Source of the DNA: Alphaproteobacteria bacterium
GTDB taxonomy: Bacteria > Pseudomonadota > Alphaproteobacteria > Sphingomonadales > Sphingomonadaceae
Direction: 5' to 3'
Length of the DNA stretch: 39,018 nucleotides
Assembly (NCBI GenBank): GCA_018970445.1
Contig: JAGWWF010000029.1
Span: 1 to 39,018, forward strand
How positions within the stretch are numbered: position 1 is the stretch's first letter; the number at the start of each line of letters is the position of its first letter. Below are positions 10,883 through 25,035 of the stretch, in pieces. A program made the position numbers and the translations under genes. The notes under the pieces were generated by a model. That model had not been told where the DNA came from. It saw only the letters and a list, made by a program, of their open reading frames with translations, and did not search any database.

Positions 10883-12892
<2,010 letters not shown>

Positions 12893-22273: not shown

Positions 22274-22417
22274 AACCGCGCAAGATGCAGGATGATAACC
22301 ACGTCTCTTGCGCAAGCCCTGGCCAGCGCGCCACAGCGGGCTGGAATATCCGGCGATTTGGCTTAAGTCAGTCGCCCTGTCGCGGCCGCATCGCCGCCCA
22401 TGTGGAGAAAGATTGCC

Positions 22418-23350
22418 ATGTCCCGTCACGCCAAGGTCATCATCATCGGGTCGGGCCCGGCCGGCTACACGGCCGCCGTCTATGCCGCCCGCGCCATGTT
22501 GGCCCCGGTGCTGATCCAGGGCCTGCAACCGGGCGGGCAGCTCACCATCACCACCGAAGTGGAAAACTGGCCGGGCGAAACCATGGTGATGGGCCCCGAT
22601 CTGATGGTGAAGATGGAGGCCCAGGCCCGCCATGTCGGCACCGAGATCATCACCGATATCGTGACCAGGGTTGATCTGTCGCGGCGCCCGTTCGTGCTGG
22701 AGACGGACAGCGGGCAGGGCTGGACGGCCGATACGCTGGTGATCGCCACCGGCGCCCAGGCCCGCTGGCTGGGGCTGGACAGCGAGACCCGATATCGCGG
22801 CTTTGGCGTTTCGGCCTGTGCCACCTGCGATGGCTTCTTCTTCCGTGGCAAGCAGGTTGTCGTGGTGGGTGGCGGCAACACGGCCGTGGAAGAGGCGATG
22901 TTCCTGACCAAGTTCGCCTCGAAGGTCCATCTGGTTCACCGCCGCGGCGAGCTGCGGGCCGACAAGACCAACCAGGCCCGCCTGCTGGAAAACCCCAAGG
23001 TGCAGATGCACTGGCACGCCGAAGTGGCCGAGGTGCATGGCACCGACATGCCCTTGAAGGTGGAGGGCGTCACCCTGCGCGACACCCGTGATGGCAGCAC
23101 CCGCCACCTGCCGGCCGATGGCCTGTTCGTTGCCATCGGCCATGTGCCGGCCACCAGCCTGTTCGCCGGGCAGGTGACGATGGATGACGAAGGCTATATC
23201 CTCACCGCGCCCGACAGCACGGCGACCAGCGTTCCCGGCGTGTTTGCCGCCGGCGACGTGAAGGACAAATTGTACCGCCAGGCCGTCACGGCGGCCGGCA
23301 TGGGCTGCATGGCCGCGCTTGAAGCGGAACGCTTTCTGGCGCACGGTTGA
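22418..23350 (+). CDS. trxB: thioredoxin-disulfide reductase
   Basis: A 310-residue FAD/NADPH flavoenzyme that reduces thioredoxin. It has the FAD-binding [16 protein letters not shown] near the N-terminus, the redox-active CATC (Cys134 and Cys137) in [14 protein letters not shown], the NADPH-binding [10 protein letters not shown], and the C-terminal FAD motif [10 protein letters not shown]. The ATG at 22418 follows GGAGAAAG at a good distance; upstream in-frame starts are less plausible. Length and motif order are normal. It is followed by a small membrane protein gene and a LysR regulator on the same strand. Confidence 0.96.
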
Positions 23351-23371: not shown

Positions 23372-23608
23372 ATGATGGCCACGTTCCTGCGCTGGTTGAT
23401 TGTGCCATGGCTGCTGCTGTTCGCGCTGGTCGCGCTGTTCGGCCGCAGCGATGCGCTGCGTGCCGGTTTCATCGGGTTTGTGGTGCTCACCGTGCTTGCC
23501 ACGTGGCTTGCCATGCGCTGGCAGATGGCGATCGAGCGGCGCAGGGTCGCCCGCCTGCAGGATGAGGATCGACAACGCCGGGCGCGGGCAGGCGGGTCGC
23601 CGCCATGA
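23372..23608 (+). CDS. small two-helix membrane protein, function unknown
   Basis: A 78-residue protein with two hydrophobic segments, roughly residues 5-24 (FLRWLIVPWLLLFALVALFG) and 31-49 (AGFIGFVVLTVLATWLAMRW), then a basic, charged tail (ERRRVARLQDEDRQRRARAG). It probably forms a helical hairpin in the inner membrane with the tail in the cytoplasm. GAGGAGGG precedes the double ATG at 23372. The stop overlaps the start of the LysR gene (ATGA, 23605-23608), so the two are translationally coupled. It lies 21 bp after trxB. No family recognised. Confidence 0.7.
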   Translation: MMATFLRWLIVPWLLLFALVALFGRSDALRAGFIGFVVLTVLATWLAMRWQMAIERRRVARLQDEDRQRRARAGGSPP

Positions 23609-24504
23609 GCCTGGATTGGGAAAAGCTGCGCCTGTTCGACATCGTGGCCGAAGCCGGCAGCTTCACCGAAGCCGCCCGCCGCCTGCACATGAGCCAGCCC
23701 GCCCTGTCGCGCCAGATCGCAGCGCTGGAAGAAAGCCTGGGGGCCAAGCTGTTCCACCGCCACGCCCGCGGCCTGGCGATGACGCACGAGGGCGAGCAAC
23801 TGCGCAGCGCCACGTCCGACATGCACGAACGCATCGACCGCGCCGCCCAGGCCATCGATGCCAGCCGCGACCGGCCCACCGGTGCCATAAGGCTGACCAC
23901 CACCGTTTCGTTCGGTTCGACCTGGCTGGCGCGGCAACTGGGCGATTTCCTCGATCTCTATCCCGATATCAGCGTCCACCTGATGCTCACCGATTCCGAT
24001 CTGGATCTGGCCAAGCGGGAGGCCGATGTCGCCATCCGCTTCCACCGGCCGTTCCAGAGCGAGCTGATGCAGCGCCCGCTGGCCAATATCCGCCATCATC
24101 TCGTTGCCAGCCCCGATTATCTCGCCCGGCACGGCGAACCCGCCAGCATCGCCGATCTCGAACGCCATCGCCTGATCGCCTATGGCGAGGCCGCGCCCGA
24201 TTATCTGAAGGGCATCAACTGGATCCTGGAACTCGGCCATGAAGGCCACCCCCGCCCGGCGGCGCTGACCATCAACAACAGCCATGGCGTGCTGCAGGCG
24301 GTGGAGGCCGGGGCCGGCATCGCCGCCCTGCCATCCTATCTCATCCGGTCATCCGGCCGCGTGCAGGTGGTGCTGCCGCAGGTGGAAGGGCCGGTGTTCC
24401 GCACCTTCTTCACCTATCCATCCGAACTGCGCCGATCGCTGCGCATTGCTGCGCTGCGGGATTTTCTGGTCGACCGCATGACCAGCCAGGCGCTCGACAT
24501 GTGA
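23605..24504 (+). CDS. LysR family transcriptional regulator
   Basis: A 299-residue LysR-type regulator. The N-terminal helix-turn-helix (LFDIVAEAGSFTEAARRLHM, then SQPALSRQIAALEESLGAKL) is canonical. The effector domain follows (IRLTTTVSFGSTWLARQLGD and, near the end, EAGAGIAALPSYLI). The ATG overlaps the stop of the small membrane protein gene. LysR proteins usually control a divergent neighbour, but here the upstream genes run in the same direction, so the target is not apparent. Downstream lie 173 bp of AT-richer sequence and then the anti-Shine-Dalgarno RNA locus, which could be transcribed from this operon or from its own promoter. Confidence 0.93.
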   Translation: MSLDWEKLRLFDIVAEAGSFTEAARRLHMSQPALSRQIAALEESLGAKLFHRHARGLAMTHEGEQLRSATSDMHERIDRAAQAIDASRDRPTGAIRLTTTVSFGSTWLARQLGDFLDLYPDISVHLMLTDSDLDLAKREADVAIRFHRPFQSELMQRPLANIRHHLVASPDYLARHGEPASIADLERHRLIAYGEAAPDYLKGINWILELGHEGHPRPAALTINNSHGVLQAVEAGAGIAALPSYLIRSSGRVQVVLPQVEGPVFRTFFTYPSELRRSLRIAALRDFLVDRMTSQALDM

Positions 24505-24677
24505 GGCAGCCTGTCGCAGCAATTTTGGCTGCGTCGAAAATTTGTGCAAAATCAAATATCTGCCGGCTTCTGCACCCCAATGCCATGCAAAAAACACATG
24601 GCTGCAACGCGATATTGTGCAGTGCAATAACGCGGCGCGAAACCGTAGATAAAGCGTGTCGCCGCGATAGCGGTCAC

Positions 24678-24847
24678 GCCGGGTCCGCCGCACTCCTCCC
24701 CTCCCGCGGCTCACCCGGCCGGCTGGTGCCTCTCCTCCCCCCTTGAGGCACCATGCCAGCCCGGAAGCGCCACTCCTCCCCTCCCGGCGCCATTCCGGGC
24801 GAATTTTCGGGCCGGATGCTGAACCCCAGCATCCGGCCCATTTTTTT
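24678..24847 (+). ncRNA. putative anti-Shine-Dalgarno small RNA with three C-rich hairpin loops
   Basis: Three consecutive hairpins and a terminator. Hairpin 1 (24678-24719): 7 bp GCCGGGT/ACCCGGC, a 2x2 internal loop, 5 bp GCCGC/GCGGC, loop ACTCCTCCCCTCCC. Hairpin 2 (24725-24752): 8 bp GGTGCCTC/GAGGCACC, loop TCCTCCCCCCTT. Hairpin 3 (24760-24799): 7 bp CCCGGAA/TTCCGGG, a 2-nt bulge, 5 bp GCGCC/GGCGC, and the same 14-nt loop as hairpin 1. The stems differ in sequence while the loops are conserved, as expected of a functional RNA. CCUCC-type loops are the hallmark of alphaproteobacterial CCUCCUCCC-motif ('cuckoo') RNAs such as the CcsR RNAs of Rhodobacter; by loop sequence they can pair with Shine-Dalgarno regions of mRNAs. 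The 5' end is unknown. At 24505-24677 I see no gene and only weak promoter-like elements. No DUF1127 gene is adjacent, unlike the CcsR locus. Confidence 0.8.
24809..24847 (+). terminator. intrinsic terminator of the small RNA locus
   Basis: A perfect 13-bp stem, GGGCCGGATGCTG (24809-24821) with CAGCATCCGGCCC (24827-24839), a five-base AACCC loop, and then A and seven Ts. It is the strongest intrinsic terminator in the window and fixes the RNA's orientation on the plus strand. Confidence 0.92.
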
Positions 24848-24931
24848 CGGCTGCGACCAAGCGCCCACTGCACACGGCCGGTTGGCCTTCCCATTTCCCA
24901 TCGGCTGGGCTAACCGCTTGGCAACCGGGCC

Positions 24932-25004
24932 GGGCCTGTAGCTCAACGGTTAGAGCTGGCCGCTCATAACGGCTAGGTTGGGGGTTCGAATCCCTCCGGG
25001 CCCA
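24932..25004 (+). tRNA. tRNA with CAU anticodon, probably tRNA-Ile2
   Basis: A 73-nt cloverleaf: acceptor GGGCCTG/CGGGCCC, D arm GCTC-AACGGTTA-GAGC, anticodon arm GGCCG-CTCATAA-CGGCT with anticodon CAU, T arm GGGGG-TTCGAAT-CCCTC, discriminator A. The next bases are CCG, so the CCA end is not encoded. A CAU anticodon fits elongator Met or the Ile2 species whose C34 is converted to lysidine. The short D loop of eight bases and the acceptor stem resemble Ile2 more; I favour Ile2 but this is not certain. Confidence 0.9.
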
Positions 25005-25035
25005 CCGGTGACGAGAAAGGAACTGGCGTCTGGGC

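Follow-up and report, generated by a model that had tools for sequence, protein, structure and literature searches.

A small RNA gene with CU-rich hairpin loops behind a VtlR/LsrB-type LysR gene in Sandarakinorhabdus

The 39,018-nucleotide stretch of DNA analyzed here as a whole (the window) carries a small RNA gene of Sandarakinorhabdus that is slightly longer than its three hairpins and terminator and has a predicted promoter of its own. The reading that we favor, and hold to be fairly likely, is that of a trans-acting small RNA of this lineage, about 190 nt long, which would be activated by a VtlR-type regulator, occupy the position of AbcR and repress mRNAs through its CUCCUCCC loops.

Organization of the locus and structure of the RNA

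As read from the open reading frames of the window, trxB, the LysR gene and the RNA follow one another on the same strand, the first hairpin starting 173 nt past the LysR stop codon. The locus comprises the following features.

22400–23350, + strand: trxB, thioredoxin reductase, the name resting on inspection by eye and on the trxB-vtlR order in the literature; the start codon is uncertain
23605–24504, + strand: VtlR/LsrB-type LysR regulator, 299 residues, no cysteine
24585–24599, no strand assigned: palindrome ATGC-N7-(G/A)CAT, the predicted site of VtlR recognition; in the window it ends in ACAT, with one mismatch
24595–24609, + strand: stretch in agreement with the Brucella VtlR motif, taken as its reverse complement, at 11 of 15 letters, core CATGGCTGCA exact
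24615–24627, + strand: TTGTGCAGTGCAA element between box and −10, conserved in the upstream regions of relatives
24646–24651, + strand: predicted −10 box TAGATA, 54 nt past the palindrome center; predicted start near 24658
24662–24673, + strand: short 5' hairpin CCGC-GATA-GCGG without a CU-rich loop, read in the sequence
24678–24719, + strand: hairpin 1, from the fold, loop ACTCCTCCCCTCCC (RNA ACUCCUCCCCUCCC) at 24692–24705
24721–24757, + strand: hairpin 2, from the fold, loop TCCTCCCCCCTT (RNA UCCUCCCCCCUU) at 24733–24744
24759–24800, + strand: hairpin 3, from the fold, loop ACTCCTCCCCTCCC (RNA ACUCCUCCCCUCCC) at 24772–24785
24809–24847, + strand: intrinsic terminator, from the fold: 13-bp stem (24809–24839), 5-nt loop, an A and seven U (24841–24847)
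24932–25006, + strand: tRNA with a CAT anticodon, the downstream neighbor, outside the RNA

Three hairpins and a 13-bp terminator with seven Ts had been reported in a preliminary description of this DNA, and both the sequence and the fold confirm them. For the stretch 24678–24860, the folding energy is −101.8 kcal/mol, while shuffled sequences average −64.8 (z −9.4), and none of 200 shuffles was as good. The motif CUCCUCCC is present at all three hairpins, beginning in hairpin 2 within the closing pair at 24732, and UUCCCCUC (aSD2) is absent from the RNA as read in the sequence. As for the heptamer CTCCTCC alone, its 6 matches in the window versus 4.4 expected do not make it rare; the 13-mer CTCCTCCCCTCCC has two copies in the 3.03-Mb genome, both within the RNA locus. 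At the Rfam gathering level the tRNA is the sole match of the window; ARAGORN also reports, at 12757–12841, a tRNA of undetermined type that is absent from the Rfam matches.

A model search for further copies in the genome itself gave eight additional weak matches (E 0.004–0.5). Five of them (L210–L212, L218, and L219) look, once folded, like terminators behind coding sequence, and the other three correspond to the terminator of the RNA itself read on the opposite strand, to an opposite-strand overlap with L212 and to a 39-nt partial match. The RNA is thus likely to be single copy in its genome. The absence of a DUF1127 gene beside the RNA, pointed out previously, extends to the entire genome, in which PF06568 finds no match while the E. 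coli control is positive. The placement between a LysR gene and a tRNA was likewise correctly described, but the LysR product is a likely activator of the RNA and not a neighbor by chance.

The LysR neighbor is a VtlR/LsrB counterpart

The best match of the window LysR among PDB sequences is 9hh1, the structure of LsrB from A. tumefaciens (PMC11975290), with 278.9 bits against 105.5 for the next one. A tree of 98 rows places LsrB within the 94-row clade that contains the window LysR and apart from four outgroup LysRs (support 100/99), with a program warning of long branches meeting at the outgroup split. By its sequence, the window LysR is thus the VtlR/LsrB counterpart, a trxB-linked ortholog of the A. 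tumefaciens protein, in a family that PMC11975290 describes as unique to Rhizobiales. Its closest named record, from Sandarakinorhabdus cyanobacteriorum, is 96% identical, and LysR identity to the A. tumefaciens protein does not exceed 56% among the fetched loci, which thus include no Rhizobiaceae positive control. A. tumefaciens LsrB possesses four cysteines, of which C144 and C273 are the redox cysteines (PMC11975290). Neither has a counterpart in the window LysR, which has no cysteine at all, and any redox sensing of the kind proposed for LsrB would have to work in a different way; among the 24 LysR homologs of the genus, 12 have no cysteine, 11 have one and a single one has two.

The genus is taken here as the 24 genomes that the search tool assigned to that of the window, Polymorphobacter-like species being included by sequence. 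LysR homologs are found in 24/24 genomes of the genus at E ≤1e-90, in 79/147 of the order at E ≤1e-70, and in 107/190 of the class at E ≤1e-50, with a single match in 104 of the latter. Synteny was examined in 146 loci. Of these, 47 were named loci, 70 came from the class search (30 returned and 40 fetched, out of the 107 matching genomes) and 29 from the order search, which returned 30 including a shared one; this set represents the better-scoring part of the matches, contains some species twice and includes four distant LysRs without trxB. Among the 145 loci with at least 300 nt downstream, 123 have a same-strand TrxB-like match upstream, which lies within 400 nt in 118 of them. The published gene order in Agrobacterium is trxB, vtlR, abcR1, and abcR2 (PMC7486931). 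As for regulation in S. meliloti, the sources disagree: LsrB activates AbcR1 according to PMC8844928, and PMC7486931 reports no such effect.

A predicted recognition site at a fixed distance from the promoter

In the first 300 nt that follow the LysR gene, 93 of 145 loci have the exact palindrome ATGC-N7-GCAT (83/123 with trxB and 10/22 without), while spacers of 3–6 and 8–12 give 0–4 loci and control motifs 0–5 in the same set. It is missing from the other 52 loci, including the window, where a single base differs. Among 28 close rows, 20 show a −10-like hexamer by regular expression, 53–54 nt past the palindrome center in every case, and in 63 distant rows the distance of the −10 peaks at 53 nt as well (37 rows). 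The center of the palindrome thereby lies about 66 nt before the predicted start; the usual binding position of LysR activators is near −66. The TTGTGCAGTGCAA element located between the box and the −10 might be an activation site or a −35 region.

The box can also be compared with the VtlR motif of Brucella, CAATGCAGCCATGCA (PMC12595884). In 30 close loci, the half adjoining the box agrees with the reverse complement of this motif at 10–14 of its 15 letters (mean 12.1). When the GCAT used for site finding is left out, the match of close loci still averages 8.1 of 11 letters versus 5.1 in stretches 60 nt downstream, and that of 63 distant loci 5.8 versus 3.2. The linkage of trxB, LysR, and RNA, the fixed spacing between box and promoter and the match to the Brucella motif together argue for a VtlR-type control of the RNA.

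Two rearranged loci indicate that the box belongs with the RNA. The two genes are separated by an insertion in G204, about 1.1 kb apart, and the RNA there still has its box (L214). G200 contains a second and very similar RNA copy on another contig (L215, C7:172926–173100; 775 bases of surroundings examined) together with a similar upstream region. By eye, the G204 insertion (G204:C192, L214 and L200) may hold a short antitoxin-like gene.

Conservation of stems and loops

By eye, a box and a CU-rich hairpin RNA directly follow LysR in 23 of the 24 genus genomes. A covariance model built from 11 RNAs, the type of search proposed in the preliminary description, places the RNA at or near LysR in 20 of these genomes (E below 1e-16 in 12) and misses it in G201, G205, G217, and G218, where it was seen only by eye. 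Under an automatic hairpin rule applied to loci that include some species twice, at least one CU-loop hairpin lies within 500 nt in 31 of 34 loci whose LysR is at least 65% identical, and at least two in 27, compared with 0/34 on the reverse strand and 1/34 further downstream. At 40–65% LysR identity, such a hairpin is found in only 24/103 loci, versus 1/103 on the reverse strand and 5/101 further downstream. Among the 30 named loci L034–L063, three (L053, L055, and L056) show no CU hairpin: the sequence downstream of LysR in L053 is the same as in the G204 locus L200, and L055 and L056, both of P. arshaanensis, have the LysR with no such RNA beside it.

The 11 distinct RNAs of the close clade were aligned, hairpin 2 being too divergent and judged by separate folds. 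In this alignment, 98.9% of cells are paired and 11 cells are changed on both sides, neither value being reached in 500 shuffles, and the covariation score is also reached by none of 500. On the other hand, the four pairs changed on both sides are matched by 48 of 500 shuffles and the seven further pair types by 494 of 500. Mean pairwise identity in the loop and in the 5' arm is 0.77 and 0.92 for hairpin 1, 0.78 and 0.64 for hairpin 2, and 0.83 and 0.86 for hairpin 3; in hairpin 2, which forms a stem in every one of the 11 RNAs, the 5' arm takes 10 different forms. The proposal of compensatory stem changes around fixed loops therefore holds in part, some changes being compensatory and the loop letters varying. 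Similarly, selection on the loops rather than on the stems is borne out by hairpin 2 and by loop composition and not by the exact letters of hairpins 1 and 3, whose loops do vary as freely as the stems in their letters but not in their composition.

This composition is constrained in the close clade, where all 33 loops have a run of at least seven pyrimidines, 28 of 33 keep CCUCC, and a single G occurs among 414 loop letters (L042). In nine Polymorphobacter-like RNAs, 24/24 of the longer loops have a pyrimidine run and only 5/24 have CCUCC. Because the loops of this sister clade stay C-rich and mostly lose CCUCC, C-richness appears as the firm constraint on the loops and the exact anti-Shine-Dalgarno core does not, which weakens a strict anti-Shine-Dalgarno reading. 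The view of a conserved sRNA gene that ends in a terminator of its own is upheld, the CU-rich loops being kept across homologs. The terminator stem is kept in the 11 aligned RNAs, with no T run worth the name in L039, and the terminator loop is itself C-rich in six of the 11 (L034–L038 and L040). The short 5' hairpin recurs at offset 60–95 in 22 of 28 close rows (5.1 in shuffled sequences; the window row, without an exact palindrome, is left out of this count) and in 30 of 63 distant rows (7.1). In L057–L062, the sequence that follows the RNA is, by eye, not the tRNA.

Elements of other types were observed in distant loci. In several loci of the Magnetospirillum type, there is an RNA-like element of another construction, with CCTCCC and a terminator. 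Eight loci (L066, L068–L071, L073, L074, and L076) show, downstream of LysR, a conserved RNA-like element (CGTCTCCTAGACGTGAAGCCTCCCTGTT..GACTT) followed by a terminator-like stretch, and these loci have no Rfam match at the gathering level.

A second box precedes a small protein gene

The extended pattern ATGC-N7-RCAT-RGCTG has 47 matches in the 24 genus genomes, two sites being counted on both strands, versus one with the reversed-pattern control, and 21 of the 24 genomes have a box match away from the RNA. All 20 second sites fetched, one per genome (G217 and further matches in G210 and G215 being left out), precede the same short open reading frame of 44–53 codons from an MK start, with RLFHA near the end; in three of these frames the script chose an upstream ATG, and 15 proteins were aligned. 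These genes have the same box and −10 layout as the RNA. The copy in the genome of the window is:

G000:C40:13421–13567 (L220:1256–1405), − strand: small protein gene of 49 codons behind the second VtlR-type box

The small protein gave no match to Pfam (three proteins tested) or NCBIfam (two tested), and none to DUF1127. In the order, it was found in 8/147 genomes at E ≤0.01, four of them at 1e-5 or better, where LysR is found in 79/147; by that search, it does not accompany LysR beyond the close clade. Small proteins are activated by VtlR in Agrobacterium (PMC7486931) and also in Brucella, where they belong to DUF1127 (PMC12595884). The present protein, encoded behind a VtlR-type box, would be comparable to these in its control, which does not imply kinship.

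Comparison with known RNA families

None of the family models tested accepts the RNA. The AbcR model RF02345 has no match at the gathering level, nor any among the 17 matches with E up to 10. The alpha-r14 model RF02344 reaches 18.0 bits (E 0.34) over 24675–24795, below its threshold of 58.8, and the CcsR/CIN1 model RF02791 reaches 11.9 bits, below 65.3, so neither a CcsR ("cuckoo") nor an alpha-r14 affiliation is supported by covariance model. Among the other candidates obtained at a lax threshold, suhB/mmgR has 23.0 bits versus 41, and all are below their cut-offs. No Rfam match at the gathering level was obtained in 53 additional loci with LysR homologs from beyond the close clade, and a search of 190 class genomes with ar15 was uninformative, the positive controls being as silent as all other genomes. 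Among the open full-text matches listed, no title indicated a published description of this RNA.

With AbcR1/AbcR2 (alpha-r15, RF02345), the RNA shares the trxB-vtlR-sRNA order, lying directly downstream of the regulator as in A. tumefaciens. It also shares with the AbcR and VtlR/LsrB system a VtlR-type box ahead of the RNA as well as a second box that precedes a small protein gene, and with AbcR1/2 of S. meliloti the published aSD1 motif CUCCUCCC at a hairpin loop (PMC8844928). It differs from AbcR by its three loop hairpins plus terminator, by the lack of UUCCCCUC and by the absence of a tandem second copy, and the regulator differs from A. tumefaciens LsrB by its lack of cysteine. NfeR1/alpha-r14 (SmelA075, RF02344) resembles it in having, in S. 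meliloti, three hairpins with an anti-Shine-Dalgarno motif in the loop of each and variable stems (PMC3927594 and PMC10746234). Three loops are therefore not the distinguishing trait that had been supposed. Unlike NfeR1, the present RNA has CUCCUCCC as common loop motif instead of the 9-mer CCUCCUCCC, which is absent in exact form from the three hairpins, and is linked to trxB and a VtlR-type LysR. The cuckoo RNAs CcsR1-4/CIN1 are also CCUCC-type loop RNAs of Alphaproteobacteria, the motif being part of the Rfam family name, but they are linked to DUF1127 (PMC10253847), a gene that is neither adjacent to the window RNA nor found in its genome. With a VtlR/LsrB-type LysR as the likely activator, AbcR is indicated rather than the DUF1127-linked RNAs. 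By analogy, the RNA thus appears to resemble AbcR in position and control and NfeR1 in build.

Proposed function

We propose that the RNA would be transcribed from its own promoter as an approximately 190-nt molecule (about 24658–24847), and that the neighboring LysR would bind the predicted palindrome upstream of the start and activate it. The three stems would present CUCCUCCC-type loops able to pair with purine-rich ribosome binding sites and thereby block the translation of several mRNAs, the repeated loop providing redundancy or multivalency. In the literature, the anti-Shine-Dalgarno motifs of AbcR1/2 and NfeR1 act by pairing (PMC8844928); in Sinorhizobium, AbcR1 and NfeR1 block the translation of several mRNAs in this manner. 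A target search with GGGAGGAG-N3-10-ATG gave nine sites versus none with the reversed control and no AbcR-like target class; by eye, few of the nine look like true gene starts, among them those of an RbfA-like and a YegP-like protein.

An RNA with several hairpins, an anti-Shine-Dalgarno motif in each loop and variable stems has the very architecture of the cuckoo family (PMC3927594 and PMC10746234), and the faint ar14 match over most of the hairpin region points the same way. A true alpha-r14/CcsR member standing next to LysR by chance is nevertheless unlikely, given the low scores, the genome free of DUF1127 genes, the lack of the exact 9-mer and a conserved linkage that is to trxB and a VtlR-type LysR. 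These scores are a weak test, a covariance model being inadequate for SmelA075 itself according to PMC3927594.

Repeated hairpins that carry the same loop motif are equally what a protein sponge would look like. CsrB is such a sponge for CsrA. Loops serving as decoys for a CU- or C-binding protein, and not as antisense seeds, would also agree with sister-clade loops made mostly of C runs, in which C-richness is kept better than the anti-Shine-Dalgarno core. However, CCUCC is largely kept in the close clade and the published motifs of AbcR1/2 and NfeR1 work by pairing (PMC8844928), which leaves this explanation improbable to about the same degree as cuckoo membership. The short same-strand distance to the LysR stop codon could suggest a mere 3' untranslated or terminator region of LysR, or an attenuator before the tRNA, devoid of function in trans. 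This is very improbable: promoter-like elements stand at a fixed spacing, the RNA and its box remain together at a distance from LysR in G204 and on a separate contig in G200, the terminator precedes the tRNA, and in L057–L062, by eye, another sequence than the tRNA follows the RNA. A VtlR-activated trans-acting RNA remains our preferred reading.

Significance

VtlR/LsrB has a counterpart in Sphingomonadales with the same gene order, a matching motif and an RNA of the anti-Shine-Dalgarno type. It is possible, and we advance this tentatively, that an ancient circuit of Alphaproteobacteria is involved, in which both an anti-Shine-Dalgarno RNA and a small protein would be under the control of a trxB-linked VtlR-type LysR acting through ATGC-N7-GCAT. 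Promoter and CU-rich loops would have been kept, while stems, loop number (one to four) and terminator loop were rebuilt, so that the multi-loop form of sphingomonads and the AbcR of Rhizobiales would both have arisen from a single locus. With the counterpart described here, free-living sphingomonads become a setting for testing where this regulator, known for its link to symbiosis and virulence, originated and what its core regulon is. The RNAs, whose loops number one to four, offer a natural series in which to ask why the seed is repeated.
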